From contig NC_015559.1 in the NCBI RefSeq assembly GCF_000214215.1, positions 2,777,001 through 2,841,000 on the forward strand: DNA of 64,000 nucleotides, given 5' to 3'. Below are positions 13,354 to 33,737 of this stretch, one piece after another (the stretch's first letter is position 1; each line of letters begins with the position of its first letter). The notes below the pieces were generated by a model. That model saw only the letters and a list, made by a program, of their open reading frames with translations. It had not been told where the DNA came from and made no database searches. This stretch comes from Marinomonas posidonica IVIA-Po-181 (lineage in GTDB: Bacteria; Pseudomonadota; Gammaproteobacteria; Pseudomonadales; Marinomonadaceae). Position numbers and translations under genes: made by a program.

Positions 13354-14271
13354 TTATTGTTTAATATGTTCCTTACGCCATGTATTTGGAGTCACACCAA
13401 CAATTCGTCGAAAAGCTGCTGAAAATTTACTTGGATTTGAATAGCCAATACTGATTGCCACATCAGTGATATTTAAGTTCCCTTGACATATTAGGCGCTT
13501 GGCGTGTTCCATTCTACGCAAGGTAAAATACGCATAAGGCGTGTACCCTGTGGCCGCGGAAAATGAACGAGTAAAACTTTGAGTATCTTGTCCAACTAAT
13601 GTGGCTAATTCAGCAACACTAACATCACTGCACACTCTACTTTCGATATACTCAAGTACGGTTTTAAGGTGTCGCTTACTTAAAGAGTAAACCGGTTTTT
13701 TCGACACCGGCTTATATTCAGCATTACTCAAGTGCTGGAGAATAACATTCAGACCTTGTTCAAAAAAAGCACTTGATAGCCCATGTAGTTCTGCATCACG
13801 CCATAATGCATTCATAATTGAACTAAGGTACACATCGTTATGCAATTGAGAGGCTGCTGGAATAAAATCTTCTGTAGTATAAGTATGTTCTGCAAGAGAA
13901 TTTAAAGCGCTTAAATTCACAGCAATACCCAGCATTTCAGTGCCGGGGAAAGAACCAAAAACTGACGTGTCTGGCAAAGCCATAGTGAAAGTGCCAGGAC
14001 GTAATACACCCTCAAGAGATGGCCCTTCACCAAATCGATGCATTCTCCCAACCTTTGCAGTACATAGTGTTAGCATTAAAAAAGGGGCCGCCTCAATTTC
14101 ACCTTCAAACGGGGAAAAACGTGCATGGGCAAGCATTGCCAAGCCTTCTTTGTCGGACACCGAAATAGAAGGTGTTGCATCTAATTCAGCCATTCTGACG
14201 TTAAAATCATCAACTTCATTTAACCAAATATCAGACTCTTTTCTCTGCATATTATCGACCTGAGACTTCAT
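13354..14271 (-). CDS. AraC family transcriptional regulator of the siderophore locus (PchR-like role)
   Basis: The 305-residue protein has an N-terminal ligand-sensing half and a C-terminal double helix-turn-helix (about residues 200-300: SVAELATLVGQDTQSFTRSF, then ITDVAISIGYSNPSKFSAAF, GVTPNTWR). It is divergent from the TonB receptor, sharing the 111-base region with the Fur palindrome. That is the arrangement of PchR with FptA in pyochelin systems, where an AraC activator senses the ferric siderophore. A similar role is inferred. Regulation of the adjacent phytase-like gene is possible but less likely. Confidence 0.85.
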   Translation of the reverse strand: MKSQVDNMQRKESDIWLNEVDDFNVRMAELDATPSISVSDKEGLAMLAHARFSPFEGEIEAAPFLMLTLCTAKVGRMHRFGEGPSLEGVLRPGTFTMALPDTSVFGSFPGTEMLGIAVNLSALNSLAEHTYTTEDFIPAASQLHNDVYLSSIMNALWRDAELHGLSSAFFEQGLNVILQHLSNAEYKPVSKKPVYSLSKRHLKTVLEYIESRVCSDVSVAELATLVGQDTQSFTRSFSAATGYTPYAYFTLRRMEHAKRLICQGNLNITDVAISIGYSNPSKFSAAFRRIVGVTPNTWRKEHIKQ

Positions 14272-14337
14272 TTAATTATCTCCTGTTTTGGAGTATTTCG
14301 CTGCTATTGGAGTAGTCAGTAACTAAAAATAGATGCT

Positions 14338-14368
14338 AATCTAATTGATAAGCATTATCAATTAGATT
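14338..14368. promoter_or_regulatory. Predicted Fur box (long palindrome) between araC-type gene and TonB receptor
   Basis: Perfect 14-base arms (14338-14351 and 14355-14368) around GCA. The core TGATAAGCATTATCA fits the 7-1-7 Fur consensus TGATAATnATTATCA with one difference. It ends 14 bases before the receptor start codon, so bound Fur would block transcription or initiation. The divergent regulator could be repressed by the same site. Confidence 0.85.
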
Positions 14369-14382
14369 CTTTGGAGAAGTTA

Positions 14383-16431
14383 ATGACTCAACAGAAAGCC
14401 CTGAAAAAGCTGTTATTACCACTGGTTCTTATGAGTGAAATCGCTATGGCTGATGACAGCTCTGACACGATCAATTTAGACGCCATCATTGTAAGTGCCG
14501 AGTTGCTCGACAAGTCAGCCAAAGAGAGTGCACAAAGTATTGAAATATATGATGAAGACACTCTTAAAAATCAAGCGGGCCTAAACTCTGCCAAAGACAT
14601 TTTAAACACAACATCTAACGTTAATTTAGTAGAAGGTACAGGAACAGCCGCCACAGTACGAGGCATAGACGGTACCGGTGCAGCACAAAATACTATTGCC
14701 ATTTACGCAGGCGGCAGACAAAGACTCAACTACGAAGTAGATGACAGACCTTTGTCTTTTAATGAAGTCGTCTACAGTGACATCAATTTATTTGATGTAG
14801 AAAAGGTCGAGGTACTGCGTGGAGCCCAAAGCACACTATCTGGCCGAAATGCCATGGCAGGGACGATTAACATTAAAACAAAAGACCCTGTATACGAAGA
14901 CGAAACCATACTTCGTGCCGCCGCTGGGAATTATGATGCACAAGAACTGTCCGCAGCCGTTAACAGAGCCATTGGTGATGATGACACCATGGCTTATCGT
15001 TTGTCTGCAGACCTAAAAGACAGAGATTCCACGGTTAAATACGGATCAACAGATAATGTCGATGATGTGAGTCGGTATGAAAGTGTGAACCTCAGAGGTA
15101 AGTTACTGATAGAACCAGATTCAGAAGACAACAAACGATTACTTTTAGGGGTATCTCATACGGACTACGCAGGACCACACCTAGAAACCGTAGCGGCTCC
15201 TTATGAAGACAGAAAAGCCGCTACTTTTGATGGACAGGCTTATCATAATACTATCGCTGACACAGTATCCTTGGATTATTCACAAGACCTCAACTCTGAC
15301 GCGTATTTCCGATTAAATAGCTCACTAACAAACGCAGAGTTTGTTCGGACAACTGCAGACAACGGCACCAATGTCGACATTGACAGCACTGAGATAGTCC
15401 TAGAGCCTCAGCTCCACTATAGCAATGAAACTTTAAGTCTTGTCGCTGGGATCTATTACTACAGCGCAGCAGAAGATGAAGATACCGAATTGTTCTCTAC
15501 CAAATATCGTTATAACGACGATACAGAAGCACTCAGCGCTTATATTGAAGGGGCGTTTAATTTATCAGATAACCTCACTCTATCATTGGGCGGGCGTCAA
15601 GAGCATGAATCAAGAAAACGCGATGGTGGCGTTTACAGTAATGGCGCAACGAGTAACGACTTTGATTACGATGAAAATTATTCACAATTTCTACCTAAAG
15701 TCGGCATCAATTGGCAACAATCTGAAATGATTAGCTGGGGCGCACAAATATCAAAAGGCTACAACGCTGGAGGAGCAGGAATCTATTTTGATAATTCATT
15801 TGCAGTACAGGATTATGATTTCAAAGAAGAAACCTCTTGGACCTATGAAATTTATAGCCGCCAACAGTTTTTACAAGGCAAGCTAAGCAGTAGCCAAAAC
15901 CTTTTCTATTCTCGCTATAAAGACCTACAGCTCGCCTACAGTTCAAGCGGTGATTTCGATAAAGACCTTTCGTATTTAATTGCCAATGTAGACAAGGTAA
16001 ATACTTGGGGCTTTGAGCAAGGCTTAACAGCAATACTGTCAGACGAATTTACTCTATCAGGCAGTTTAGGCTTTCTAAATACTGAGATTGTTGAGTTTTC
16101 TAGCGACACCAGTTTAGAAGGTAATGATCTTGCGATTGCACCTTCAGTTACTTCTAGTATCAGCCTAGATTGGCACAAAGACAATTGGACAACCAACCTA
16201 AACCTTCGTTATTCCGGTGCGTATTACACCTACCCAAATAACGAATCTGCCTCAAAAACAGATGCTTATGTTGTTGCTAATGCAAGAGCTACCTACCAAA
16301 TGGGTGATGCCCAATGGTTCGCAAGCATAGACAACTTATTCGATGAAGACGCCATTATTTATCAACGCTCAACGTCAGCCGTATTGTTACAACCACGTAC
16401 TTTCCTAGTGGGAGTGGAATACGCACTTTAA
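14383..16431 (+). CDS. TonB-dependent outer-membrane ferric-siderophore receptor
   Basis: This 682-residue receptor has a signal peptide (LKKLLLPLVLMSEIAMA), a TonB-box-like DAIIVSA, a plug domain (VEVLRGAQSTLSGRNAMAG, then TINIKTKDP) and a beta-barrel ending PRTFLVGVEYAL. The ATG at 14383 is chosen over the TTG at 14371 because GGAG lies seven bases upstream and the signal peptide then begins MTQQ. It sits immediately downstream of the Fur palindrome and upstream of salicylate synthase, so it should import the iron complex of the siderophore made by this cluster. The closest functional analogue is FptA, on context. Confidence 0.9.
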   Translation: MTQQKALKKLLLPLVLMSEIAMADDSSDTINLDAIIVSAELLDKSAKESAQSIEIYDEDTLKNQAGLNSAKDILNTTSNVNLVEGTGTAATVRGIDGTGAAQNTIAIYAGGRQRLNYEVDDRPLSFNEVVYSDINLFDVEKVEVLRGAQSTLSGRNAMAGTINIKTKDPVYEDETILRAAAGNYDAQELSAAVNRAIGDDDTMAYRLSADLKDRDSTVKYGSTDNVDDVSRYESVNLRGKLLIEPDSEDNKRLLLGVSHTDYAGPHLETVAAPYEDRKAATFDGQAYHNTIADTVSLDYSQDLNSDAYFRLNSSLTNAEFVRTTADNGTNVDIDSTEIVLEPQLHYSNETLSLVAGIYYYSAAEDEDTELFSTKYRYNDDTEALSAYIEGAFNLSDNLTLSLGGRQEHESRKRDGGVYSNGATSNDFDYDENYSQFLPKVGINWQQSEMISWGAQISKGYNAGGAGIYFDNSFAVQDYDFKEETSWTYEIYSRQQFLQGKLSSSQNLFYSRYKDLQLAYSSSGDFDKDLSYLIANVDKVNTWGFEQGLTAILSDEFTLSGSLGFLNTEIVEFSSDTSLEGNDLAIAPSVTSSISLDWHKDNWTTNLNLRYSGAYYTYPNNESASKTDAYVVANARATYQMGDAQWFASIDNLFDEDAIIYQRSTSAVLLQPRTFLVGVEYAL

Positions 16432-16462
16432 ACCGAAAACATCAGCAATTCGATCAAGAAGG

Positions 16463-16510
16463 TGCAAATAACTAGTTTTATCAATGTGTTAAGGAATTCA
16501 GTTATTTGCA
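16463..16510. repeat. 11-base inverted repeat upstream of salicylate synthase
   Basis: TGCAAATAACT at 16463-16473 pairs with AGTTATTTGCA at 16500-16510, separated by 26 bases. It could be a regulator site or an RNA structure in the leader. It overlaps the alternative TTG start at 16506. Confidence 0.6.
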
Positions 16511-16565
16511 TCCTATTGAGCTGACACTTAAATGTTTACCAGACAGTCGAGATGGAGTTTTGAAC

Positions 16566-17900
16566 ATGAGTAATATTGCCCTAGACCTAAATATAACAAG
16601 CTCAAACACAAAAAATGATGTGTTCGAATTAGCCGCTAGATTAGCAAGCAGCAAGCTTTTTGAAGACTATATGATTTATGAAAAAGACGGCGAATGCTGG
16701 TTCGGTGGGGGTATCGAACGGTCGGTGACTTTATATGCAGACCGTTTAGAGTCCAGCTATAAGGGTCAATCATTAGTAGTAGAAGCTACAGATAAAACAC
16801 TATTTGAATTACTCAACACAGAGCTGTCTTCATGGGAAGGTGCCTGGCAAGCAAACGGATGGGCCTGTTTCGAACTGGCATACGCTGTAAATGAACCTAA
16901 TGTTCTCAATGACGATGAGCAAGCCGGAAAAGTCCCCCTACTGTTTTTATCTCAACCTAAAGCGATCGTGTCATTAGGGCAACACACTCCTGAAATACAA
17001 ACTAAAGACGAAAGCCTAAAACAAAAAATCAACGAACTCCTAAATACTCCCAAAGTATCTAACGCCTCAACAAATGGCGTCTCCATTCCAGATAGTGAAG
17101 AATACAAACAATGGGTCAATAACTCATTGACTCAAATAGAAAAAGGCACGTTAGAAAAAGTCATTTTATCAAGAAAACTAAAATTGGACTTTTCACCTGA
17201 CTTTGTTGCTACTTGGTTGCGTGGTCGCAAAGAGAATACACCGGCTCGATCTTTTTCACTGAATTTAGGCGATTGGCAAGCCAGTGGCTTTAGCCCTGAA
17301 CTCGTTATGTCTATTGATAAAAACCGTATTGTCACGACAGAACCTCTTGCCGGAACTCGTCGTAGAGATGGCATTTTTGCAGAAGACATCTCTCGTTTTA
17401 ACGAGCTATACCGAGATCCAAAAGAAACACATGAACACGCCATTTCGGTCTTCTTAGCAACAAATGAGCTAAAAGCGGTCTGCCATGAACCTTCCATTGT
17501 TGTTCGTCGGTTCATGGAGCGAAAGGAAAGAGGATCTGTTCAACATCTTGCATCAACAGTATGTGGTGAATTGAAAGATGGATTGAACCCATGGGATGCA
17601 TTCGCAAGCCTATTCCCTTCTGTTACTGCTTCAGGAATCCCCAAAAAACCTGCCTTTAAAGAAATACGCCGTAATGAAGTTGAAAGTAGAGGCCTGTATG
17701 CGGGAGCCGTTCTTCGTCTCAGCCATGATGGCACCTTCGACGCAGCGCTGGTACTGAGAAGTTTGTTAGGCCATAAGGGCAAATCCTGGTTGCAAGCTGG
17801 CGCGGGCATCGTCAGTAACTCTACTCCTGAGCGAGAGTTAACTGAGACAACGGAGAAACTGAGCAGTGTTGCTCCTTGGGTCATGAAGCAAATGGCATAG
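16566..17900 (+). CDS. Salicylate synthase (Irp9/YbtS/MbtI type, chorismate to salicylate)
   Basis: The 444-residue product matches the MST family, which carries out both isochorismate formation and pyruvate elimination. Diagnostic segments: KVILSRKLKL, TEPLAGTRRRDG, HEHAISVFLA, RKERGSVQHLASTVCG, FPSVTASGIPKKPA, ESRGLYAGAVLRLS and GAGIVSNSTPERELTET. These resemble MbtI/Irp9 more than PchA or EntC, so no separate PchB lyase is needed, and none is present. The ATG at 16566 has GGAG upstream; a TTG at 16506 would add 20 residues with no family counterpart. Salicylate made here should be activated by the ligase at 28729-30399. Confidence 0.88.
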   Translation: MSNIALDLNITSSNTKNDVFELAARLASSKLFEDYMIYEKDGECWFGGGIERSVTLYADRLESSYKGQSLVVEATDKTLFELLNTELSSWEGAWQANGWACFELAYAVNEPNVLNDDEQAGKVPLLFLSQPKAIVSLGQHTPEIQTKDESLKQKINELLNTPKVSNASTNGVSIPDSEEYKQWVNNSLTQIEKGTLEKVILSRKLKLDFSPDFVATWLRGRKENTPARSFSLNLGDWQASGFSPELVMSIDKNRIVTTEPLAGTRRRDGIFAEDISRFNELYRDPKETHEHAISVFLATNELKAVCHEPSIVVRRFMERKERGSVQHLASTVCGELKDGLNPWDAFASLFPSVTASGIPKKPAFKEIRRNEVESRGLYAGAVLRLSHDGTFDAALVLRSLLGHKGKSWLQAGAGIVSNSTPERELTETTEKLSSVAPWVMKQMA

Positions 17901-17965
17901 TTCAAACCATTTGCTTGATGACAGATTCCAATAGCTAACACATACTTAATTAAGGGATATAAATA

Positions 17966-19273
17966 GTGCAATACTCAAACACACCAGAATTTTTTGATTT
18001 GATTGGGGTCGGATGTGGCCCATCTAACCTAGCTTTAGCCATCGCATTAGACGAACAAAAACAAAACCTAAACACTGTATTTTTAGAGAAACAAGCGGAC
18101 TACAGCTGGCATGGCAATACCATTACAGGTAATAGCTATTTACAAATTTCATTTCTTAAAGACCTTGTCTCCTTTCGTAATCCAATGAGCTATTACAGCT
18201 TTATTAACTATTTAAAAGTACACAACCGTTTACACGATTTTATTAACCTTGGCACCTTTTACCCTAGCCGATTAGAGTTTAATGACTACTTACGCTGGGT
18301 CGCTAAACAGTTTTCTCATCAATGCCAATACGATGCTGAAGTGATTGCGATTGAACCGATCAAAACACGCGATACTGTCACTTCATTGAATGTACTTTCT
18401 CGTGATCATGATGGAAAAGAAACCTCTCGCATCACTCGCTCACTGGTCATTGGCACAGGCGGAAAACCTTACATTCCAGAACCTTTTAAAGCCTTAAAAA
18501 CCGACTCACGCGTTTTTCACCACTCTACTTATTTAAAATCTGTAAACCTTATTACCTGTAACACAGAGAAAAGAGTGGCCATTGTCGGTGGAGGACAAAG
18601 TGCGGCAGAAGCATTCTTAGATATTTACGAGAATGATCCATCTATAAAAATTGATTTGATCGTCAGAGGCTCATCATTGAAGCCTTCAGACTCAAGCCCT
18701 TTTGTAAATGAGATATTCGCGCCGAAAGCAACAGATGCCATGTTCAACATGACAAACCATAGCCGCGCCGAAACGCTAAAAGAGTATCATCACACAAATT
18801 ACGCTGCGATCGATTTGCCAATGATCGAACAGATATACAGCATTTTATACAAACAAAAAATCACCGGCGATATTCGCTACAGATTTTTGCCTAATACGAA
18901 CGTTGAAGCCTCTAGCACTCAAGAAAACGGTATTTCACTAAAAATCATCAACTCATCTAATGGTTCATCCGAAACCAATGTTTATGATCAGGTCATTTTG
19001 GCTACGGGTTACGAGCGAAATACACACCGTGAGCTGCTTTCCTCTATATCTGATTATACAAAAGATTTTGAAGCCGACAGAGACTACCGACTACTGTCTG
19101 ACCCGCGTCTACAAACGCCTATTTATCTACAGGGGTATTGTGAACACAGTCATGGGATTAGTGACACCTTACTTTCCATACTGGCAACACGATCGGGAGA
19201 GATCACCACGTCTCTATACAAGGCCCTAAATTCAACTAATAAGAAAAAAGAAGTGTCTAGCGCTCTTATCTGA
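17966..19273 (+). CDS. Flavin-dependent amine N-hydroxylase (SidA/PvdA/IucD family)
   Basis: The 435-residue enzyme has the FAD motif GVGCGPSNLALAIAL (about residue 12), the family block QISFLKDLVSFRNP followed by FINLGTFYPSRLEFNDYLRW, an NADPH motif IVGGGQSAAEAFLDI (about 206) and ATGYERN near the end. Family members hydroxylate the side-chain nitrogen of ornithine (PvdA), lysine (IucD) or histamine (BasC). Sequence style is close to PvdA, but substrate is not decidable by eye. It starts with GTG and has AAGGGA upstream. The hydroxylated nitrogen would give the siderophore a hydroxamate-type iron ligand. There is no acyl- or formyltransferase partner and no histidine decarboxylase in the cluster. 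Confidence 0.88.
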   Translation: MQYSNTPEFFDLIGVGCGPSNLALAIALDEQKQNLNTVFLEKQADYSWHGNTITGNSYLQISFLKDLVSFRNPMSYYSFINYLKVHNRLHDFINLGTFYPSRLEFNDYLRWVAKQFSHQCQYDAEVIAIEPIKTRDTVTSLNVLSRDHDGKETSRITRSLVIGTGGKPYIPEPFKALKTDSRVFHHSTYLKSVNLITCNTEKRVAIVGGGQSAAEAFLDIYENDPSIKIDLIVRGSSLKPSDSSPFVNEIFAPKATDAMFNMTNHSRAETLKEYHHTNYAAIDLPMIEQIYSILYKQKITGDIRYRFLPNTNVEASSTQENGISLKIINSSNGSSETNVYDQVILATGYERNTHRELLSSISDYTKDFEADRDYRLLSDPRLQTPIYLQGYCEHSHGISDTLLSILATRSGEITTSLYKALNSTNKKKEVSSALI

Positions 19274-19382
19274 CCATCACAAGATCCATGTTAATAAACG
19301 GTAAGTATGAGTGGGCAGTTCCTATGCTCACTCAAGAGCCCATGCTGTTTAAAACCAGAGTTCTCTTTTACAACAAGGCTTA

Positions 19383-22300
19383 ATGACAATGAATATCGCA
19401 CAAAAGCAATTACTGCTAAAACGGTTAGCTAAATCACGCGGCTTAGAGGTATCCACTCATATAGAAGATCCTTCTAGCAACATACCGCCTTTAGAAAATA
19501 CGCTTTCAGTGCCTCTTTCTCACGCCCAAGAAAGAATGTGGTTTCTTCATCAATTAGACCCAAGCTCATCGGCCTACAATGTATGCGTTCTTTGGCACTT
19601 AAAAGGGCCGCTAGACTACAAAGCACTTAAAGAAAGCGCTGTTCGAATTACCATGCAGCACAGTATTTTTAGAACGCTTTACTATACAAATGACGAGGGT
19701 AACTCTAGACAAAAAATAGTGTCAAGCTTACCGCCTGAATGGCACACACAAGATCTGAGAAAGTATGAGAAAAAAGAGCAAAATGAAAAGCTCAATGCGA
19801 TTGCTCAAAAAGCCAGCACAGACCCTTTTGATTTAACCCAAAAGAGTGGATTACGCTTAATACTAGCCACTCTCGATGATGATTACCATGTGTTGGTTAT
19901 GATCGGCCAGCATATTTCATGGGACGGCCCGTCATTCGGCATTTTTTCCAATGAACTTGCCCGTGGCTATAACTTATACCTAAAAAACGACACATCTAAT
20001 CAGTCATCGACACCATTACAATACGTAGATTTTGCTGACTGGCACCGTAAGCAATGGCAAACTGACACAGAAAAACGCGAAACGGCCCTAGCCTTCTGGC
20101 AAAAAGAGCTTTCACCATTACCCGAGAAGCTAGACTTCCCTACTGACTTTGTTCGCACAGCAGGGAATGATGAGTCTGGTGGCTGGTGCAGCACAGATTT
20201 AGACAAAACCACAACGGCCTCTTTGCAGAAACTGTGCGCCGAAGAGCAGGTTACCCCTTTCGAAATTTTAATCACCACGATCGCTATTCTTATCACTCGC
20301 CTAGCACGGGCCTCTGAAATAACAATTGGCACCGTTGCCTCTCACCGCAATATGCCAGAGCTCAATGATGTCATCGGCAACTTTGGTAACGTGGTTCCTA
20401 TTCGTTTAAAAGTATCGCCAAGCTTTAGTTTTCGTCAGCAATTACAACAATGCGCCAAAGTCTGTCGCGTGGCCTTTTCAAACTCAGACATTCCATTTGA
20501 ACATTTATTAGAACGACTGGATATAACCCGTGGAGAATCCTCTAATCCTTTATTAGATACCATGGTGACCTTCTTAGCCCACGGTATGAATCCACCTGAA
20601 ATGGATGGCTTAAATGTAGAATGGCGCAAGCACTTCAATGGTACAACTCAGACCGATTTATCCTTCGACGCCTTATTGCAAAACGACTGCTTACAGATAC
20701 AAGCCACATGGAGAAAGTCTCTTTTCCACGCCAACACCATACCAAAGCATTTGCAACGTTTAGCAAATTTACTAGGTACATTTGCTAACGCCCCTGATCA
20801 GATTATCGCCGCTGAAAGTCTATTACTCAAAGAAGAATACAGTCAACTTGTTGACTCATGGGGACACCGCCCAGCGCTCTCGAAAAAAGCGCCAACCGTC
20901 ATTGATTGGTTTGAAAACATAGTCAATGAAAAACCAAAAGACATTGCGGTTTATCAAACTCGCGCACTAAAAAAGCATGATAAAAAAGACGCTACCCAAC
21001 CCGAAGAAAAATTGGATTTTGAAACCTTAAATGCTCGAGCAAACGCCTTGGCTCGCTGGCTCATCAAACAAAATATCGGACCAGAAAAACAAATCGCTAT
21101 TTGCTTACCTCGAGAAAAAGAATGGTTTGTTGCCATGCTAGCCATCTTAAAAGCAGGTGCTTCTTTTATCCCTATTGATCCAAATTACCCAAGCGATTAC
21201 ATAGACAGAGTGGTTCGCCTTGCTGAGCCATACTTCATCTTTATTAATAAACAAGCATCGACTGAAAGCTCTTTGACAGGCGCAATCACACAGCAAAGTG
21301 GCAAACTTGTCGACCTTCATACTGCCGAAACGGCCGCAATGGAAGGAGGTTTATCTAACACCAACGTATCGGACAATGATCGTCTCGAAAAACTGTTACC
21401 AGAACACCCTGTGTATACGGTCTTCACTTCTGGTTCCAGCGGTCAACCCAAAGGGGTTGTCATCCCTCATTCAGCCTTAGCCAATTTACTTAGCAGTCAT
21501 AAAAAAGACCTTTATGAAGCAGCCATAAAGCGCACAGGTCGAAGCACCCTACGAATAGGCCACGCATGGTCATTGGCTTTCGATGCCTCTTGGCAGCCTA
21601 ATTTATGGATGTTTGAAGGTCATGAATTGCACTTATTTGATACCGATGTTATGCAAGATCCTATTGCTCTGGCTCAAGAAATCATTCAACGTAAACTGGA
21701 TTTTATCGAGCTAACACCAGGCATGTTAGACGAAGTTCTGCCTTGGTTGGAGTCAGGGGTTACCTTGCCAAGTGGCGAATACCTAGCAGGGCATATCCCA
21801 GCCTTGCTTGGCTTTGGTGGCGAAGCGGTCAAAGCCCAACTTTGGCAAAAAATGATCGACCTAGAACAGACCACTGGCTTCAACCTGTATGGGCCAACTG
21901 AAACCACAGTCGACTCCATGATTGCCCGTGCAGAAGCAAATAAATCCCCAAGCATTGGTATGCCAATATGGGGCGCGCACGCTTATGTTCTAGACAAATG
22001 TATGCAACTCGCACCACCTGGCATTCCAGGTGAGCTGGCTATCTCAGGAGAAGGACTAGCAAGAGGTTACCTTGGTCGTGGTGACCTTACCGCCAGCCAT
22101 TTTGTCGCAAACCCTTACGGCCTGCCTAGCTCAAGACTATATCGCACTGGTGACCGAGTCCGTTGGTTGCGAGATGGCATGATGGAATACATTGGACGTA
22201 TTGACGAGCAGATTAAGATTCGGGGGTTCCGTGTAGAACCATTAGAAGTAGAAGCCTCTGTCGAAAGGATTATCCAATTACCTTGTGCAATCGTCGTCAA

Positions 22301-24773: not shown

Positions 24774-24789
24774 TCACGGAGAAATTAAC

Positions 24790-25002
24790 ATGAGTGACAG
24801 TATTTTTGACGATGAGTCGATTTTATTTTTAATTCTAATAAATGCTCAAAAACAGTATTCGATCTGGCCAAATATTCTCCCAATTCCTGATGGTTGGCTG
24901 GCTGATAATGGCCCTATGTCTCGCAAAAAATGCATGGACTGGCTCGAAGCCAATTGGACCGATTTACGCCCTATTCAATCTCAACAAGAGCAAGCTGTCT
25001 GA
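24790..25002 (+). CDS. MbtH-like NRPS chaperone
   Basis: This small protein (70 residues) has the MbtH pattern: QKQYSIWPN, P.GW (PIPDGWLAD), a CMDWLEANWTDLRP end and the conserved tryptophans. MbtH proteins bind adenylation domains and raise their activity or solubility. A GGAG ribosome site lies just before the ATG. It falls between the large NRPS and the stand-alone threonine adenylation enzyme and overlaps the latter by one base (TGATG), so it probably partners one or both. The N terminus (DDESILFLILINAQ) is slightly unusual in having LILI where relatives are more polar. Confidence 0.92.
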   Translation: MSDSIFDDESILFLILINAQKQYSIWPNILPIPDGWLADNGPMSRKKCMDWLEANWTDLRPIQSQQEQAV

Positions 25003-26723
25003 TGGATCAATTAATCACCCCTAACCAATCAGGGGACACACTTCATGACCGTTTTGAACAACAAGTACAGATTTGGCCCGATAAAATAGCGGTGAGTTAC
25101 CAAGATCAACAACTCACCTATCAACAGCTAGATGTATTAGCAAAAGCACACAGTGAAGAGCTTATCAGCCGTGGGGTTCAGTCGGGCGATATGGTGGCCG
25201 TCATGCTTTCAAGAAGTGTCGACCTTATTGTACACATTATTGCTGTCTTGAAGACTGGCGCTTGCTATGTCCCTATTGACCCTAATTACCCTGCAGATCG
25301 AGTGGAATGGGTTATAGAAACCAGCACCCCTGTCTGTTTCATTAGCCGCCGTGAGTTGTGCCAGAACATATGGCCTGAGCAACTTCCTTCGCAGCTAAAA
25401 GAACGCTTTTATTTCATTGAATCGGCTCCTCAAGTCAATGTAAACAATAGCCAAGCATCGACTGATACACCTTCACATCAAGAGACAGAAAATAACCAGC
25501 ACTCAGACCTTGCTTATGTGATTTTTACATCAGGTTCCACAGGGAAACCCAAAGGCGTCATGGTTGGCCACAGTCAGGTCATTAGCTTGCTAGATGCAGT
25601 CACCCCCATGTTAGCCAACGACCATAATGATGTGTGGACACTGTTTCACTCCTTTGCCTTTGATTTCTCAGTCTGGGAAATATGGGGGGCACTCACTACT
25701 GGTGCGCGCCTATGCATTGTTCCTCAGGAATCCACATGGTCAGCAGATGCTTTCTTAGAATTATTAAAGCAAGAACAAGTCACCATTCTGAATCAAACCC
25801 CTTCTGCTTTTTACGCATTGACTGCTGCAGTCAATGAGGCACATACCAAAACAGGAGCAAGACAAACACTGTCATTACGCAGTGTGATCTTTGGTGGTGA
25901 AGCGCTCAACCTAAACAAACTGAATGCATGGTGGAAACATTACCCAGAAGGCAAACCACGATTAATCAACATGTATGGCATTACAGAAACCACTGTACAT
26001 GTCACTTGGTTAGAGCTTTCTAAAACTCTCTTTAATAATGATTCAAGCCCTATTGGCCATGCGCTCACAGGCCTGCAAGTTCACCTGCTCAATGAAAAGT
26101 TAGAGCCAGTCAATGAAGGTGAAGTGGGCGAAATGTTTGTCAGTGGAAAGCAATTGGCGATCGGCTATTTGAAGCAAGCGGGATTATCTGCAAGTCGCTT
26201 TGTCGCTAGCCCTTTCCATAAGAGCCAACGCTTGTATCGCTCGGGTGATCTGGCCATGTGGCAAGATGGGCAACTTTATTATCAAGGGCGAGCAGATCGA
26301 CAATTAAAAATCCGAGGTTTTCGTATTGAACCCGGTGAAATTGAGTCGGCTATGGAGTCACACCCTGTCGTACAAAATTGTGCTGTTATACCAAAGCCTG
26401 AAAAAGATGGCTCATCACCAAAAAGCTTGATCGCATTTTTGATTGCCACAAAAGACTCTCACACTGAAATGAATTCAAAAGACACGCTCTCAGCGCTTAG
26501 GGATCACGCAATAAGCCTGCTGCCAGCACACTATATTCCGACCGAATATGTCTTTGTTTCCTCTTACCCACTTACCGTCAATGGCAAGCTTGATCAGGCC
26601 GCCCTGTTAGAAATCTGGCAACAAAAATCAAACGTCCCAACCGCTCATGATAATCGTATGGCACTTCTTCAAAAGAAGTTAGCCAAACTCCAAAAAAACT
26701 ACGCTCAAAAGGAGATAGAGTAA
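25002..26723 (+). CDS. Stand-alone L-threonine adenylation enzyme (NRPS A domain)
   Basis: The roughly 573-residue enzyme has only an adenylation domain: core YVIFTSGSTGKPKGVM, NMYGITETTVHVT, YRSGDLAMW, GRADRQLKIRGFRIEPGEIE and the A10 lysine in VNGKLDQ. The specificity residues read D-F-W-N-I-G-M-V-H-K, from FDFSVWEIW, LNQTPSAFY, VIFGGEAL and MYGITETTVH. This is the classic threonine code. The ATG at 25002 overlaps the MbtH stop; a frame from 24930 lies inside that gene. It must load threonine in trans onto a separate carrier, most likely the second carrier of the next protein, whose cyclization domain would make a methyloxazoline. Its stop overlaps the next start by one base. Confidence 0.9.
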   Translation: MDQLITPNQSGDTLHDRFEQQVQIWPDKIAVSYQDQQLTYQQLDVLAKAHSEELISRGVQSGDMVAVMLSRSVDLIVHIIAVLKTGACYVPIDPNYPADRVEWVIETSTPVCFISRRELCQNIWPEQLPSQLKERFYFIESAPQVNVNNSQASTDTPSHQETENNQHSDLAYVIFTSGSTGKPKGVMVGHSQVISLLDAVTPMLANDHNDVWTLFHSFAFDFSVWEIWGALTTGARLCIVPQESTWSADAFLELLKQEQVTILNQTPSAFYALTAAVNEAHTKTGARQTLSLRSVIFGGEALNLNKLNAWWKHYPEGKPRLINMYGITETTVHVTWLELSKTLFNNDSSPIGHALTGLQVHLLNEKLEPVNEGEVGEMFVSGKQLAIGYLKQAGLSASRFVASPFHKSQRLYRSGDLAMWQDGQLYYQGRADRQLKIRGFRIEPGEIESAMESHPVVQNCAVIPKPEKDGSSPKSLIAFLIATKDSHTEMNSKDTLSALRDHAISLLPAHYIPTEYVFVSSYPLTVNGKLDQAALLEIWQQKSNVPTAHDNRMALLQKKLAKLQKNYAQKEIE

Positions 26724-28732
26724 TGTCTGATTCCCAAACAATATTGCATGAAATTACGGCGCTTTTAGCACAAAAAATCAATGTAAATGCAGACAGCATT
26801 TCCCCTAATGACAACCTTTACGCATTAGGACTAGATTCAATCACCCTAATGGGGATTGTGGCTCACTGGCGTGCGCAAGGCTATCTAGTAAATTTCACCG
26901 CTTTGTCATCCAAACCATGCGTGAATGACTGGGTTAATATATTAGCTAATGCCAAACACCCTGAGCACGCTTCTGCTCCTCAAGCCACACAGAAAATCGC
27001 TTCAACACCAACCGAAAAAGCATTTCCACTTGCCCCAATGCAACAAGCCTACTGGTTAGGTCGCAACCCTGAACAACCTCTTGGTGGCGTCTCTGCGCAT
27101 TTATATACCGAGTTTGAAAGCGACAACCAGATCGTCCCAGAAACCCTTGAAAAAGCTTTAAATAAATTAGCTGAACGTCATTCTTCTCTCAGGTTAATAG
27201 TGACCCGAGATGGTCAACAAATTCACAAATTAAGTGAAAACAGCACACCTATTCCTCTAGTGATTAATGACTTACGTGAAAAAGACGCTACCACAATTGA
27301 ACAAACACTAGAAAATACACGTCAGCTGCTTTCATCACAGATGCTCGATATTGAAAATGGTGAAGTGCTTGCCATTGCCTTAAGCCAATTACCCAATGGT
27401 GGCAGCCGATTGCACCTAGATGTGGATATGGTGGCCGCTGATGCCGTGAGTTACCGAGTACTGCTACGTGAACTTGCCATGCTCTATCAAAACCCAGAAA
27501 TCGAACTTGCTGAACTACCTATGAGCTTCAGTGATTGCCGTCACAATATAGAACAGAACTATTCAGACGTGAAAAAGCGCTCTGGTGAATGGTGGAATAA
27601 TCGTCTTCACCAAATGCCTGAAGGCCCAAAACTTCCGTTAAAAACCAGCCTATTCGAAACAAAGAATACTCAGCCACATACCACAAGACGTCACTTTTAT
27701 TTTGATTCCACACTGCGTGATCAGCTTTATCAAGTATGTCGTGAACACAACCTTACACCGGCTACTGTCTTAGCAACGGTGTTAGCAGAAACACTTGCCG
27801 GCTGGAGCAGTAACTCACACTTCCTTATTAATGTGCCTTTATTCCTTCGCCCAATCGATGGACCTGATCTATCAGGCGTTGTCGGTGATTTTAGCAGTTC
27901 AATCATGCTTGAAGTGAATTTAAGCGAAGTAGAGACATTCCTTGACCGTGCCAAAACAATCCAATCACAACTACATGAAGACGCCTCCTATGCGGACTAT
28001 AACGGCGTTCAAGTATTACGTGATATTGGCCGCTTAAAAGGCCATCAAGTTACCGCCCCCATCGTCTTTACCAGTGCTTTAAACCTTGGAGAACTATTTG
28101 AACCTGTCGTACGAGACGTCTTTGGCGACCCAATATGGATCATCTCTCAAGGCCCTCAAGTATTACTGGATACCCAAATAACCGAACTGGATGGTGGCTT
28201 ACTGCTCAACTGGGACTGTCGAGAAGACATGTTTATTGATGGTGTCTTGGATGCCATGTTTGAATTTTTCCATACCTCTGTTCTTGCCCTTGCTAATAAA
28301 GCTGACACTTGGTCTCAGTGCCTATCCGATAATTTACCGAGCGAGAGAATACAAGCCGAAACAAGCAACAACGAAACGTTAGCACCTGAACAAGAAGCTG
28401 TTTTACCAACCACCACAACAGAAAAAGCGGTTGCCTCAATCTGGTCAGAAACCATTGGCTCTAAAACAGATGACATCAACCTCAATTTGTTTGCCTCTGG
28501 TGGTGACTCCGTTTTAGCCACAACGCTAGTAGCCAAACTAAGAGAGGTTTTTGGCGTCGACTCCATTGACCTTAAAGCCCTGTTTAACGCCCCAAGCATT
28601 GCTGGTGCAGTTAGCTCTATCATTGCTACATGTGGCGATGAAATGGTGAATGAAATCGCGACTTTCTATTGCGAAATCATTGAGTTAGATGATGAAAGTA
28701 TCAAAGCAGAATTAGAAGGCACTGTATTATGA
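26723..28732 (+). CDS. NRPS: aryl/peptidyl carrier, heterocyclization domain, peptidyl carrier
   Basis: The 669-residue protein has an N-terminal carrier (serine in LGLDSIT near residue 40, aryl-carrier style). A heterocyclization domain follows, with PMQQAYWLGRN and LGGVSAH near 110-130 and the cyclization motif D-x4-D-x2-S as DMVAADAVS near 235-243, replacing HHxxxDG. A C-terminal carrier has its serine in SGGDSVLATT near 596. No adenylation domain is present, matching the free-standing ligases on both sides. Predicted work: salicyl on carrier 1, threonine on carrier 2, condensation and cyclodehydration to salicyl-methyloxazoline, passed to the large NRPS. The layout resembles pieces of the pseudomonine and acinetobactin systems. 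Confidence 0.9.
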   Translation: MSDSQTILHEITALLAQKINVNADSISPNDNLYALGLDSITLMGIVAHWRAQGYLVNFTALSSKPCVNDWVNILANAKHPEHASAPQATQKIASTPTEKAFPLAPMQQAYWLGRNPEQPLGGVSAHLYTEFESDNQIVPETLEKALNKLAERHSSLRLIVTRDGQQIHKLSENSTPIPLVINDLREKDATTIEQTLENTRQLLSSQMLDIENGEVLAIALSQLPNGGSRLHLDVDMVAADAVSYRVLLRELAMLYQNPEIELAELPMSFSDCRHNIEQNYSDVKKRSGEWWNNRLHQMPEGPKLPLKTSLFETKNTQPHTTRRHFYFDSTLRDQLYQVCREHNLTPATVLATVLAETLAGWSSNSHFLINVPLFLRPIDGPDLSGVVGDFSSSIMLEVNLSEVETFLDRAKTIQSQLHEDASYADYNGVQVLRDIGRLKGHQVTAPIVFTSALNLGELFEPVVRDVFGDPIWIISQGPQVLLDTQITELDGGLLLNWDCREDMFIDGVLDAMFEFFHTSVLALANKADTWSQCLSDNLPSERIQAETSNNETLAPEQEAVLPTTTTEKAVASIWSETIGSKTDDINLNLFASGGDSVLATTLVAKLREVFGVDSIDLKALFNAPSIAGAVSSIIATCGDEMVNEIATFYCEIIELDDESIKAELEGTVL

Positions 28733-30399
28733 ATGCGGCATTCGATGGACTTACTCCGTGGCCAGAAGAATTGGCAGAAACCTATTGCAAAGGCGGTTAT
28801 TGGCAAAACCAAAACCTAGCCAGCTGGTTTGCTGAGAAAGTCTCTAATAAAGAAAACATTGTTCTCAGTGGACTGGGGATAGATGGTAAGCCTCAGGACC
28901 TCACAGGGAAAGAATTACACCTTTGCGTGCAGGAACTTGCGCAAGGCTTGGCGAAACTAGACATTCAACCAAGTGAGAAAGTGGTATTACAAATGGGTAA
29001 TACCAATAGCTTTGTTATTACCTTGTTTGCACTGTTTGAACTAGGTGCTATTCCAGTGATGGCACTGCCTGGCCATAGGTATAGAGAAATAGAACATTTC
29101 CTTAACCTAACCAAGGCTCGTACATGGATTGCAGGAGACATTGAAGAAAACTCTCCTATTCCAGACTTGGCCGTTAAGCTAAAAGAAGGTGTACCTAGCT
29201 TACAAAATATCATTCTTGATAAACAAGATACTGGCTCGTTTCACTCATTAGGGTCCTTACTAAAAAAAGGGAATAAAAAGTTTGAAAGCACCAATCTCGG
29301 TCATGCAACTGACCCAGCTGGAATAGCTGTATTGTTATGCTCAGGTGGCACAACTGGATTACCTAAGCTGATTCCTCGAACGCATCGTGATTATCTATTC
29401 AATGCAAAAGCCAGCGCTGAAGTATGTGAATTAGATGAAAATGATGGCTATTTAGTCGCATTACCAGCAGGACACAACTTCCCATTGGCTTGCCCGGGGA
29501 TTTTAGGCGCCTTCGAACAAGGTGCTAAAGTGGTTATGTGCCCTTCTCCTAGCCCAGACATTGCCTACCAATGGATCACAGATACCAATGCCACTGTTAC
29601 CGCCCTCGTCCCTCCCCTAGTTCGAGTATGGCTACAAAATGCTGAGCTTGGCTTTAAAGCCCCAAGCACATTGAGAATGCTGCAAGTAGGTGGATCACGC
29701 CTAGATGCAGATTTAGCCCAATGTATTCCGAATAAGTTAAGCTGCAAATTACAGCAAGTATTCGGCATGGCCGAAGGCCTATTAAACTTCACTCGCAGTA
29801 AAGACCCAGACCTTTTGGTACAAAAAACACAAGGTCGACCTTTGTCTGAGCTGGATGAAATTCGAATAGTTGATAGCCAAGGACAAGACGTACCCAATGG
29901 CCAACGAGGCGAACTTTGGACAAGAGGCCCTTACACTTTAAGAGGTTATTACAAGGACCCAAAAGCAAATGATTCTTCATTTTCGGCAGATGGTTATTAC
30001 AAATCAGGCGACCTTGTCCGCCGTTTAAGTTCTGGTCACCTTATTGTTGAGGGACGTATAAAAGAAGTCATTCGTAGAGGCGCAGAGACCATACCAGCAG
30101 AATCTCTCGAGACGCACTTAAGCCTACATTCAGAGATTCAAGCCGCCGCGGTGATTGGACTACCTTGCGAACGTTTAGGACAGCAAGTATGCGCTGTACT
30201 GGTTAACAAAGAAGAGACAGATCTAACACTGACGCTAAATGAAGTCCGTCATTTCTTAATTGAAGAAGGCGTTGCGCATTTTATGCTGCCCGATTCAATC
30301 GAATATGTGCCTGAACTTCCTCTTACTGCTGTAGGTAAAGTGGCCTACCAACAATTGATCTCAAAATTTTCTCCCCCTTCACCTGAGACCACATATTAA
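28729..30399 (+). CDS. Salicylate-AMP ligase (PchD/YbtE/MbtA type)
   Basis: The 556-residue ligase has core LCSGGTTGLPKLIPRTHRDY (about residue 203), QVFGMAEGLLNFT, and a final lysine in LTAVGKVAY. Its pocket reads N-F-C-A-Q-G-V-L-N-K: N, F and C from HNFPLACPG, L and N from GLLNFT. Dihydroxybenzoate enzymes such as DhbE and EntE carry Y, S and V at the second, third and eighth places; F, C and L mark salicylate activators. This agrees with the salicylate synthase in the same operon. It overlaps the previous gene by four bases (ATGA) and should load the N-terminal carrier of that protein. Confidence 0.9.
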   Translation: MNAAFDGLTPWPEELAETYCKGGYWQNQNLASWFAEKVSNKENIVLSGLGIDGKPQDLTGKELHLCVQELAQGLAKLDIQPSEKVVLQMGNTNSFVITLFALFELGAIPVMALPGHRYREIEHFLNLTKARTWIAGDIEENSPIPDLAVKLKEGVPSLQNIILDKQDTGSFHSLGSLLKKGNKKFESTNLGHATDPAGIAVLLCSGGTTGLPKLIPRTHRDYLFNAKASAEVCELDENDGYLVALPAGHNFPLACPGILGAFEQGAKVVMCPSPSPDIAYQWITDTNATVTALVPPLVRVWLQNAELGFKAPSTLRMLQVGGSRLDADLAQCIPNKLSCKLQQVFGMAEGLLNFTRSKDPDLLVQKTQGRPLSELDEIRIVDSQGQDVPNGQRGELWTRGPYTLRGYYKDPKANDSSFSADGYYKSGDLVRRLSSGHLIVEGRIKEVIRRGAETIPAESLETHLSLHSEIQAAAVIGLPCERLGQQVCAVLVNKEETDLTLTLNEVRHFLIEEGVAHFMLPDSIEYVPELPLTAVGKVAYQQLISKFSPPSPETTY

Positions 30400-30413
30400 G
30401 GAATATTTCTATT

Positions 30414-31247
30414 ATGACAAATGACACTTTCAGCAAGTCGTTCACCCAAACTAAGGACTCTAAAGTTACTCAGCCAGAATGGTCAGCAAGCGAATATGAA
30501 GAAGGCAATGAAGGGCAATTCCAAGCGGCTTGTCATGCCATGGAATCCATTAATGCTTGGAATACCAGAGACAAAGGCTATGCCGCCGATATTGGTTGTG
30601 GCAGTGGTCGATTAGTGGAAGCACTGGCTCGTAAAGGAGGTTGGCAAGTCGATGCAAAAGATGTGTCCCAATCTATGATCGATGCCGTTATAAAACGCTG
30701 TGAAGGTTTACCCGTTACCGCCAGTGTGTGTGACGCCAGTGATCTATCATTGGAAAAAAATAAGTACGCGCTTGTGTCTAGTTGCTGGATGTTGCATTGG
30801 CTTAAAAACGCAACCAACACATTAGAGCAAATGGTCAACGCACTTACCCCATCTGGCAACTTAGTACTGCAATGGAGTTGTGGACAACCTAGATCCGAAG
30901 GGTTTCTGTTACGAGACACACTGCAAGAAGTTTTCGACCGTCCTAAATGGATCGAACGACTAAAATCCGCGCCGCTGGCAATGTATCACCATCCAATAGA
31001 AGAAATGAGTAGCCTGCTTGAGAGTATGGGGCTAGAAATCGTTTCTACCCGCGAAAATATTCTTATCAGTGGCGGTGAAAATATTGCCGGCCTAAAACGC
31101 TCACTACGTTCCGCTGCCTTTGCCGCGCAAACCGTTGTATTGGGTGACGATGTAGATGAACTGATCGATGAAAGTTTGTACTTATTAAACGCACGAAATG
31201 CGCTGCGTATCTCAAACACGGAAATCATTGCTCGAAAACCTGACTAA
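30414..31247 (+). CDS. Class I SAM-dependent methyltransferase (siderophore tailoring, predicted)
   Basis: The 277-residue protein has the SAM-binding motif ADIGCGSGRLVEALA (about residue 57), an acidic strand end (DAKDVSQSMID) and the LHWLKN segment of BioC/ubiquinone-type methyltransferases. It lies 14 bases after the salicylate ligase with AAGGA before the ATG, so it is co-transcribed. A role in methylating the siderophore (oxygen, nitrogen or oxazoline side) is inferred from position only. A BioC function is unlikely because no biotin genes are near. The C-terminal 60 residues are helix-rich without a known motif. Confidence 0.82.
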   Translation: MTNDTFSKSFTQTKDSKVTQPEWSASEYEEGNEGQFQAACHAMESINAWNTRDKGYAADIGCGSGRLVEALARKGGWQVDAKDVSQSMIDAVIKRCEGLPVTASVCDASDLSLEKNKYALVSSCWMLHWLKNATNTLEQMVNALTPSGNLVLQWSCGQPRSEGFLLRDTLQEVFDRPKWIERLKSAPLAMYHHPIEEMSSLLESMGLEIVSTRENILISGGENIAGLKRSLRSAAFAAQTVVLGDDVDELIDESLYLLNARNALRISNTEIIARKPD

Positions 31248-31293
31248 AAATGCCCTCACAATCCGCAAGGGTATAAAAAATATCAGCCCTATC

Positions 31294-31316
31294 AGCCAAC
31301 TAAAAAGGAGTTGGCT
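31294..31316 (+). repeat. Small hairpin ahead of the 156-residue unknown gene
   Basis: AGCCAACT, loop AAAAAGG, AGTTGGCT. It includes an AAGGAG sequence and could be a weak processing or attenuation hairpin in the 92-base gap. No T-run follows. Confidence 0.45.
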
Positions 31317-31339
31317 AACGTTAACTTATGGAGATACTT

Positions 31340-31810
31340 ATGAGCTTATTAGCCCATGAAACCAAACACTGTCCCCTAATGCTCGCTATCGCTAAAGGCA
31401 AGCCAACTATGGAACAACATTTAGAGTCATTAACCCATTGGGATAATTGGTTTGCCGATGAAAAACCCATTCATGTAATACGTTTTTTTGATGATGCTGA
31501 CTCCCTTCATCCGCCTTCAGGTGCAGGCAAAGAGACCAAGAAATGGATGAATGAAGGCGCCGACAATAAATTCCGCGCCTTTATAAAACATATGATGATT
31601 GTTGTGCCAGAAGACCAATATGAACGTATGAAAAATATGAGTGTCACAAAAGTGTTTGGCATCCCTGGAGGCATATTCCCTTCCACCGATGACGCGTTCG
31701 AATGGTTAGCTCAGCAGGCTGACACAGATATTTTTGACCATGATGATGCTTGGCGAAATGACATAAAAGAAACAATCAGAGCACACCTTGTAGAAGAACT
31801 ACCAAAGTAA
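31340..31810 (+). CDS. Unknown 156-residue protein in the siderophore operon
   Basis: I do not recognise this family. The product is soluble, starts MSLLAHETKHCPLML, and is mixed charged and aromatic. Notable parts are HWDNWFADEKPIHVIRFFDD, a GAGKETKKW segment (not a true P-loop), MMIVVPEDQYERM and KVFGIPGGIFPS. There is no signal peptide or membrane span. The ATG at 31340 has GGAG six bases upstream; an ATG at 31328 would add four residues. It lies between the methyltransferase and the transporter, so a role in siderophore assembly, release or iron removal is plausible. A distant STAS/SpoIIAA-like fold is possible but not supported by a motif. Confidence 0.8.
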   Translation: MSLLAHETKHCPLMLAIAKGKPTMEQHLESLTHWDNWFADEKPIHVIRFFDDADSLHPPSGAGKETKKWMNEGADNKFRAFIKHMMIVVPEDQYERMKNMSVTKVFGIPGGIFPSTDDAFEWLAQQADTDIFDHDDAWRNDIKETIRAHLVEELPK

Positions 31811-31847
31811 AAACAGCCATGCCACCAACTAAATTTAGAGGTAAAAA

Positions 31848-33047
31848 ATGACAACATATAAACGCTCTACTTGGTCGTTATTGTTTAGCTTATACGCTAC
31901 ACAATATGTAGGGATTAGCTTTTTATTGGTGGCACTAGTGGCTATTTTACGCAGCCAGGGAATGCCTTTAGAGAAACTAAGTATTGTGTATAGCCTAGGT
32001 GTTTTCTGGGTATTTAAGTTTCTTTGGGCACCTTTGATTGACCGTTTTTCATTGCGTCGATTTGGTCATTACCGAACTTGGCTGCTGACTTTACAGGCCG
32101 CCATGATGATCAACTTAATTATTCTAGGATTTTATGATCTCTCAACCGACTTTGTATTAGTCATGTCTCTTTGCGCTACATTCTCATTTTTCTCCGCAAC
32201 TCAAGATGTGGCGGTGGACGGTTTAGCTTGTCGCCTTCTCGATGTGAACAGTCGTGGAGTGGGAAATGGCATACAGCAAGCTGGCACCATGTTTGGGAGC
32301 TTGGTTGGCAGTGGTTTGGTATTGTCTATTTACCCAATGCTAGGATGGCTTGGCTGTATGTTGCTTATGGCAGGACTGACCGGTATCTCTTGGCTTCAGC
32401 TAATTTTCTATAAAGAACCGACTGGAAAGGTACGACCCCAAATAGGCTATAAACGTTTAGTGGGATTTTGGCGGTACGTATCAAAACCATGGCTGGTGCT
32501 TTTGTTTCTGTACCCAATAGGTGGCGGTATGGCATACGCCATCATTAACCCTATGCTTGTCGATATAGGCTGGTCGTTAAGTAGTATTGGAACAGCTATA
32601 TACCTTGTGGCAACACCATTTGGTATCGTCTCAGCATTAATTGCAGGAAAACTCATTCAGCTCGTTGGAAGACGCAAAGCTCTGCTTGGCTTAATGTCTA
32701 CGCAAGCCTTGTTTTTGTTGGTGCTACTCATTCCTGCTTACGGTGTGAATGAGACACTCCCTGTATACGCATGCCTTATCACGTATTTTATTGTCCATTC
32801 CCCGATACCTGCCGTGCTGTATACCCTAATGATGGATCAAACAGATCAAAGGACGCCTGCAACGGATTTTACCATTCAAGCCAGTACTCTCATGCTTATT
32901 GGTATTATCACATCTGGCGCAAGCACGGCATTAGCAGGTGCATTCGGCTACATTGCTGTTATCTGGATGGCTTCCGCAATGTGTGTTGTGGCGTTTATTG
33001 CCGTATGGTTTCTAGGCACAACAAACAGACTCACAGCTTCCACATAA
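31848..33047 (+). CDS. MFS siderophore transporter of the RhtX/FptX type
   Basis: The 399-residue protein has about 12 hydrophobic spans. Its start, WSLLFSLYATQYVGISFLLV, then FWVFKFLWAPLIDRF and FSATQDVAVDGLACRLL, matches the AmpG-like RhtX/FptX group that imports ferric siderophores (rhizobactin 1021, pyochelin) across the inner membrane without an ABC system. It is the last gene of the cluster, 37 bases after the unknown gene, and no ABC importer is present in the cluster. It would be the inner-membrane partner of the TonB receptor at 14383-16431. Export by this protein is a less likely alternative. Confidence 0.87.
   Translation: MTTYKRSTWSLLFSLYATQYVGISFLLVALVAILRSQGMPLEKLSIVYSLGVFWVFKFLWAPLIDRFSLRRFGHYRTWLLTLQAAMMINLIILGFYDLSTDFVLVMSLCATFSFFSATQDVAVDGLACRLLDVNSRGVGNGIQQAGTMFGSLVGSGLVLSIYPMLGWLGCMLLMAGLTGISWLQLIFYKEPTGKVRPQIGYKRLVGFWRYVSKPWLVLLFLYPIGGGMAYAIINPMLVDIGWSLSSIGTAIYLVATPFGIVSALIAGKLIQLVGRRKALLGLMSTQALFLLVLLIPAYGVNETLPVYACLITYFIVHSPIPAVLYTLMMDQTDQRTPATDFTIQASTLMLIGIITSGASTALAGAFGYIAVIWMASAMCVVAFIAVWFLGTTNRLTAST

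Positions 33048-33660: not shown

Positions 33661-33737
<77 letters not shown>

Follow-up and report, generated by a model that had tools for sequence, protein, structure and literature searches.

The 64,000-nt window analyzed here, the whole stretch of DNA under study (Marinomonas posidonica IVIA-Po-181, GCF_000214215.1, NC_015559.1 positions 2,777,001-2,841,000, forward strand), probably contains a locus with which its host makes a mixed phenolate-oxazoline-hydroxamate siderophore and then recaptures and imports it; in this product, salicyl-methyloxazoline would be combined with N5-hydroxyornithine and released by a terminal condensation (C) domain. The locus spans 13354-33047 (all feature coordinates are window positions; Table 1), and all named genes are intact open reading frames (ORFs). 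The original prediction of a complete salicylate/methyloxazoline/hydroxamate locus, distinct from that of pseudomonine, agrees with the gene set, the motifs, and the kinship of the hydroxylase, and every gene it listed was recovered, as seen from the ORFs, domain searches, a pass of the TIGR03494 cut-off, and intact catalytic motifs. Its chemistry is best read as phenolate-oxazoline plus hydroxyornithine, a well-known siderophore type.

In the proposed pathway, the salicylate synthase would supply salicylate, which the ligase would load on the aryl carrier protein (ArCP) domain. A stand-alone adenylation (A) protein, together with the MbtH-like protein, would load threonine on the last carrier of a protein composed of ArCP, heterocyclization (Cy), and peptidyl carrier protein (PCP) domains, and the Cy domain would form salicyl-methyloxazoline. 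The PvdA-like enzyme would produce N5-hydroxy-L-ornithine, to be loaded and acylated by the C-A-thiolation (T) module of a nonribosomal peptide synthetase (NRPS). Chain release would fall to the terminal C domain, acting where a thioesterase might be expected; in the simplest case, the N5-hydroxylamine would attack the thioester of its own chain, and a cyclic hydroxamate would result. The product would then be salicyl-methyloxazoline-cyclo-N5-hydroxyornithine, possibly methylated; the receptor would import its ferric complex, and a 160-aa protein (U160) and a major facilitator superfamily (MFS) protein may serve uptake or intracellular handling. We infer the pathway substrates from the sequence; the release chemistry, the methylation site, and the role of U160 are our guess.

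The dedicated salicylate synthase is, at the sequence level, a stronger argument for salicylate than any residue of the ligase. It passes the equivalog cut-off of TIGR03494 (383 bits versus 325), and the solved proteins most similar to it are MbtI and Irp9. The ligase is closest among solved proteins to the salicylate-AMP ligase 5wm2 (466 bits) and has the motifs HNFPLACPG and AEGLLN where DhbE has HNYPLSSPG and AEGLVN. In the sequence comparison, a Cys stands at the DhbE Ser position, as in 5wm2, and we take this position to be EntE Ser240 and BasE Ser247. A Ser-to-Cys change is reported to shift BasE and EntE towards salicylate (PMC12005286).

The stand-alone A protein and the ArCP-Cy-PCP protein point to oxazoline formation from threonine. 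The pocket anchors of the A protein read DFWNIGMVHK, which we take to be a threonine code. The single Cy domain of the locus has an intact DxxxxDxxS motif (DMVAADAVS), and the carrier serines are intact in all three carrier domains (GLDS/GGDS). Among solved proteins, the ArCP-Cy-PCP protein is most similar to synthetases that form heterocycles, namely dihydroaeruginoic acid synthetase (7emy), HMWP2, and EpoB. A threonine-type A protein working with ArCP-Cy-PCP would thus be expected to yield salicyl-methyloxazoline. The ArCP-Cy-PCP query found matches in 68 of 369 class genomes at E 0.001. Among the matches listed, only that in the own genome is full-length; the others are partial, the widest covering residues 11-552 at 32% identity (G143), with Cy matches at no more than 36% and short carrier matches up to 43%.

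The N-hydroxylase is, by kinship, a PvdA-like enzyme of the L-ornithine N5 type. It scores 490 bits against the L-ornithine 5-monooxygenase 3s5w, which we take to be PvdA, and 267 down to 126 bits against 11 other solved sequences. The next five solved relatives are also L-ornithine N5-monooxygenases (264-267 bits), followed by MbtG (263 bits, the best lysine type), KtzI (260), a lysine type (191), a putrescine type (160), a sequence named only monooxygenase (160), and a desferrioxamine lysine type (126). The score against the histamine N-monooxygenase family TIGR04439 is 191 bits, below the cut-off of 700. As originally predicted, a histidine decarboxylase appears to be lacking: the own genome has no PF00282 match at E 0.001, other kinds of histidine decarboxylase not having been searched. 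This family, presumably that of the pseudomonine/acinetobactin enzyme, was positive in 8 of 14 control genomes. A histamine-based product was rejected, given the hydroxylase kinship and the missing PF00282 match.

The NRPS supplies the predicted additional full C-A-T module with an acidic pocket. Its C domains have intact QHISWDG and HHLLLDG motifs, and its A pocket reads DAQEGGLVDK. Glu278 and Asp331 of this pocket also occur in the ornithine pocket DVGEIGSIDK (printed in PMC3992020). Between the T and terminal C domains lie about 230 aa (residues 1125-1354, window 22755-23444) with no assigned domain, which are kept in M. transparens. A phmmer search of this stretch against the PDB gave nothing meaningful, and in the class sample, where 6 of 321 genomes matched (own included), no row from another genome reaches into it beyond its last few residues. 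Alignment with hhalign to 29 C-type domains hit the expected end at P 0.036, with a probability of only 1.4% (shuffled control, P 0.24 elsewhere). The stretch may be the eroded C-terminal lobe of either a C or an epimerization (E) domain.

Several observations weigh against the salicyl-methyloxazoline-hydroxyornithine reading. The ligase residue alone is no proof of salicylate use, because 5kei carries the same Cys and residues and yet is labeled a 2,3-dihydroxybenzoate (DHB) ligase in the PDB table, and because wild-type BasE accepts both acids, including salicylate (PMC12005286). The code DAQEGGLVDK had no match in the literature, where only the ornithine code was found, in one paper, and loading of hydroxyornithine by this A domain is therefore putative. 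The closest solved relatives of the terminal C domain are ordinary C domains, and an AlphaFold model of NRPS residues 1117-1796, which include it, reached a predicted local distance difference test score (pLDDT) of 31 (two sequences). Domain searches found no thioesterase domain among the locus genes, and no formyl- or acetyltransferase was seen among them, so the hydroxamate must form via the terminal C domain or by another route. A product with a single hydroxyornithine would offer only four donors. The MFS protein, RhtX/FptX-like as originally predicted, is likely a ferri-siderophore importer, and TIGR02718 is its best NCBIfam family; however, the score is 133 bits against a cut-off of 356, and the AmpG family is nearly as good (125 bits), so its substrate is putative, as is its direction of transport. 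No exporter was recognised.

The same building blocks might instead be assembled into a larger product, which we consider unlikely although it stays a real rival, because the terminal C domain is nearest to ordinary C domains. In this case the terminal C domain would link at least two salicyl-oxazoline-hydroxyornithine chains, with an N5-hydroxylamine attacking the thioester of another chain to yield a dimer or oligomer that is hexadentate or larger; alternatively, the module would act iteratively. The missing thioesterase, the intact HHLLLDG motif of the terminal C domain, and the four donors of a monomer would all suit such joining. On the other side, nothing in the locus points to iteration, and the kasichelins, which have one phenolate- or catecholate-oxazoline from threonine and one hydroxyornithine lactam hydroxamate, bind iron in chrome azurol S (CAS) assays (PMC12305651).

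A route like that of pseudomonine and acinetobactin, which the original prediction took as the nearest known logics, is improbable. Here a free N-hydroxyamine, either N-hydroxyhistamine or another such compound, would receive the chain from the terminal C domain, and an extra amino acid would lie in between. The stand-alone threonine A protein, the aryl oxazoline from threonine, and C-domain release are shared features (PMC12005286). In contrast, the hydroxylase is far closer to PvdA than to the putrescine type or the histamine family, no PF00282 decarboxylase was found and no histamine-type hydroxylase is present in the locus, the C-A-T module is an addition, and a single Cy domain stands where acinetobactin BasD has tandem Cy domains (PMC12005286). 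We therefore replaced this comparison with the hydroxyornithine group, given the hydroxylase kinship, the TIGR04439 score, the missing PF00282 match, and an A pocket sharing Glu278 and Asp331 with the ornithine code.

Kasichelin is, by our comparison, the nearest product found. Kasichelins A-D from Streptomyces (kas) resemble the proposed product in that a Cy domain makes a phenolate or catecholate oxazoline from threonine, in their single hydroxyornithine lactam hydroxamate, and in the lack of a thioesterase; their release step is left unexplained (PMC12305651). The kas cluster differs in having a module for a beta-amino acid linker as well as epimerization domains, and the genes for its salicylate have been proposed to reside at another site (PMC12305651); the Marinomonas locus lacks the linker module, has a terminal C domain instead, and includes a salicylate synthase and a ligase dedicated to the pathway. 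Cahuitamycin, amychelin, and gobichelin were taken as one comparison group. Cahuitamycin shares a salicylate synthase, a salicylate-AMP ligase, a Cy-made oxazoline, and an ornithine hydroxylase, and differs in its use of serine, more modules, and a formyltransferase (PMC4757757), none of the last being seen in the Marinomonas locus. Amychelin has the stand-alone release enzyme AmcB (as cited in PMC12305651), which was likewise not seen. Mupirochelin was rejected as a relative because Thr and Cys modules and a thioesterase are present in its cluster and no such hydroxylase is among the genes listed (PMC10080011).

An MbtI-type salicylate synthase also links the locus with mycobactin and nocobactin. 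These siderophores contain a salicyl-oxazoline, an N-hydroxylated basic amino acid, and a cyclic hydroxamate, mycobactin with polyketide synthase (PKS) parts. Mycobactin differs in its lysine hydroxylase MbtG, whereas the Marinomonas hydroxylase is nearer to PvdA (490 versus 263 bits).

The claim that the locus is apparently undescribed stands, as far as the literature goes. Searches for Marinomonas siderophore NRPS and for salicylate/oxazoline/hydroxyornithine combinations, MIBiG and antiSMASH comparison aside, turned up no description of it in titles, the openings of abstracts, or passages of papers including PMC4359443, PMC4849084, PMC12662954, and PMC12971057; the main text of the last does not mention Marinomonas. 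One Marinomonas strain was CAS-positive while antiSMASH detected no siderophore gene (PMC4359443).

The locus is being kept by purifying selection, since 11 genes compared between the own genome and M. transparens (L012/L045/L046) have ratios of nonsynonymous to synonymous substitution (dN/dS) of 0.13-0.26 at 77-94% amino-acid identity. The MbtH-like protein, outside this set, is 96% identical. Synonymous divergence (dS) reaches 0.70 in the receptor, whereas the remaining 10 genes show 0.14-0.27, as if the receptor had been exchanged or were under other pressure. Of 48 Marinomonas genomes, 2 carry a salicylate synthase of at least 91% identity; a further match, in G013 (30% over part of the protein), is a distant chorismate enzyme. 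The TIGR03494 cut-off is passed by 1 of 369 genomes in the class-wide sample, the own genome.

One near relative, G032 (L043:16614-20000, L044:1-1888), likely uses the siderophore without producing it. AraC, receptor, U160, and MFS protein are retained there at 97-99% identity, and the sequence jumps from window ~16510 to ~30850, inside the methyltransferase gene, of which a remnant is kept. About 14.3 kb of biosynthesis has thus been lost (breakpoints set by eye). No salicylate synthase occurs elsewhere in this genome at E 1e-30, and the ArCP-Cy-PCP query found only two matches, both weak and of the carrier type (E 5.6e-7 and 1.5e-4). That the M. posidonica locus is itself a decaying or silent remnant, as this loss and the rarity of the synthase might suggest, is very improbable given intact reading frames and catalytic motifs and the low dN/dS in the 11 genes compared with M. 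transparens.

Other siderophore-type regions were noted in passing. Outside the window, G000:C1:2361102-2375569 is likely a second siderophore region, where an NRPS frame of 2864 aa occurs together with a chorismate-binding enzyme and a 307-aa frame that has an aryl-carrier-like match. In two further Marinomonas genomes, frames of 986 and 1001 aa at G033:C16:51129-53630 and G025:C1:298868-301432, with two tandem heterocyclization-like matches each, perhaps belong to a different oxazoline siderophore type.

U160, listed originally as an unknown protein, indeed has no Pfam or NCBIfam match, and it appears, from its neighbors and a fold match, to be linked to uptake and not part of the assembly line. 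Its AlphaFold model (pLDDT 85.8 from 7 sequences) has a single Foldseek match below 0.001, the SpoIIAA-like DUF3478 protein 2q3l (E 2.8e-4), followed by SpoIIAA chains from 5e-3. The predicted fold resembles that of 2q3l (template modeling score, TM, 0.50 by query, 0.61 by target), whereas identity is 16%, and U160, with no family assignment of its own, was found here only in Marinomonas beside siderophore-type receptors. Homologues occur in 7 of 56 genomes searched, own included and all of the same genus, and none beyond the own genome among the 369 class genomes at E 1e-5.

In four other Marinomonas genomes (G024, G025, G028, and G031), U160 (42-53% identity) adjoins a receptor of 42-61% identity, and an AraC gene whose product is 55-58% identical lies no more than a few kb away. 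No biosynthetic gene of the locus was found by tblastn at E 1e-8 in the 19-35 kb around these U160 genes, nor any salicylate synthase in these genomes at E 1e-30. Because the same neighbors recur at these loci without biosynthesis, U160 travels with receptor and regulator, which makes it unlikely to be a biosynthetic enzyme. A periplasmic-binding gene adjoins the receptor in G025 and G024, followed in G025 by FecCD-type permease and ATPase genes; G031 also has a FecCD-type permease. A type I restriction system (HsdR, HsdM) adjoins the receptor-U160 locus in G031 (L048:2701-10916); an NRPS cluster, suggested for these neighbors by ORF sizes, is thereby ruled out.

A more far-reaching proposal, possible but rather doubtful as a whole, would combine these points. 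The siderophore would be unusually short, with salicyl-methyloxazoline directly on an N5-hydroxyornithine whose ring the terminal C domain closes; its biosynthetic block would sit within a Marinomonas uptake module of greater age, comprising AraC, receptor, and U160; the SpoIIAA-like U160 would represent a new class of ferri-siderophore handling or signaling factor; and relatives lacking the biosynthetic block would be users.

The locus is inferred to be controlled by Fur and by the AraC-family regulator, judging from sequence features before the receptor. A TonB receptor, a Fur-like palindrome, and the AraC gene stand in front, as the original prediction described. The palindrome is self-complementary at 28 of 31 positions and matches the Fur consensus at only 14 of 19, a score that four places in the window attain; the case for it lies more in its symmetry, position, and conservation than in its consensus score. 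It occurs upstream of the receptor at 7/7 U160 loci, with 28-30 of 31-33 positions paired in six and a shorter form in G028. A GGAGT-N14/N15-GGAGT repeat precedes the receptor at the same 7/7 loci and, with N14-16 spacing, has its sole plus-strand occurrence in the window there, with one more on the minus strand. An N17 spacing matched 0/7 loci and N14/N15 was set after reading the sequences, so this motif is fitted to the data. The seven loci are not seven independent cases, because three are close relatives.

Table 1. Features of the putative siderophore locus, in window positions
Feature	Position	Strand	Evidence and remarks
AraC-family regulator, 305 aa	13354..14271	-	HTH_18 E 3.4e-22
GGAGT-N14-GGAGT direct repeat, candidate AraC-regulator operator	14290..14313	+	putative function, from sequence
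Fur-like palindrome before receptor	14338..14368	.	28/31 self-complementary; 14/19 to Fur consensus
TonB-dependent siderophore receptor	14371..16431	+	Plug and barrel domains; likely ATG start 14383
Salicylate synthase, MbtI/Irp9 type	16506..17900	+	TIGR03494 383 bits; likely ATG start 16566
L-ornithine N5-hydroxylase, PvdA type by kinship	17966..19273	+	3s5w 490 bits
NRPS C-A-T-(~230 aa without domain)-C	19383..24773	+	Pfam domains, motifs, pocket anchors; A pocket DAQEGGLVDK
MbtH-like protein	24790..25002	+	PF03621 E 1.2e-17
Stand-alone adenylation protein, 573 aa	25002..26723	+	AMP-binding E 2.3e-85; pocket DFWNIGMVHK; listed ORF start 24930
ArCP-Cy-PCP protein	26723..28732	+	Motifs GLDS, DMVAADAVS, GGDS
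Salicylate-AMP ligase	28729..30399	+	Best solved relative 5wm2, 466 bits; HNFPLACPG
SAM-dependent methyltransferase (SAM, S-adenosylmethionine)	30414..31247	+	Methyltransf_25 E 2e-16; partly deleted in G032
U160, 160 aa, predicted SpoIIAA-like fold	31328..31810	+	AlphaFold pLDDT 85.8; Foldseek top 2q3l E 2.8e-4
MFS protein, likely RhtX/FptX-like ferri-siderophore importer	31848..33047	+	MFS_1 E 1.9e-26; putative substrate, from sequence

The description of the genes as mostly overlapping was too strong: from the receptor to the MFS gene, neighboring genes overlap at 3 of 10 junctions and are separated by 14-109 bp at the remaining 7. The likely starts of the receptor, the salicylate synthase, and the threonine A protein, the last overlapping the MbtH stop, were read by eye. 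The best NCBIfam family of the receptor is TIGR01783 (201 bits, below the cut-off of 223.5). A recent foreign island finds no support in composition (GC content 43.2% in the cluster, 44.3 and 44.7% in the flanks), despite a tRNA-Val at 33661-33737, and a megablast plasmid search gave no match. This tRNA gene directly follows the cluster, with uvrB after it; in M. transparens, ~10 kb separates the MFS gene from uvrB. A phytase-like esterase-domain gene lies at 11532-12863, between an upstream gene and the AraC gene; it has no tblastn match in the G032 stretch, although the neighboring upstream gene there is 99.7% identical.

The locus predicts a simple siderophore of a marine bacterium, with the terminal C domain as a candidate enzyme for cyclic hydroxamate formation. 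A relative of the G032 type and a producer would form a natural producer/non-producer pair, and the recurring gene neighborhoods tie U160, a protein family with no Pfam or NCBIfam assignment, to siderophore-type receptors.

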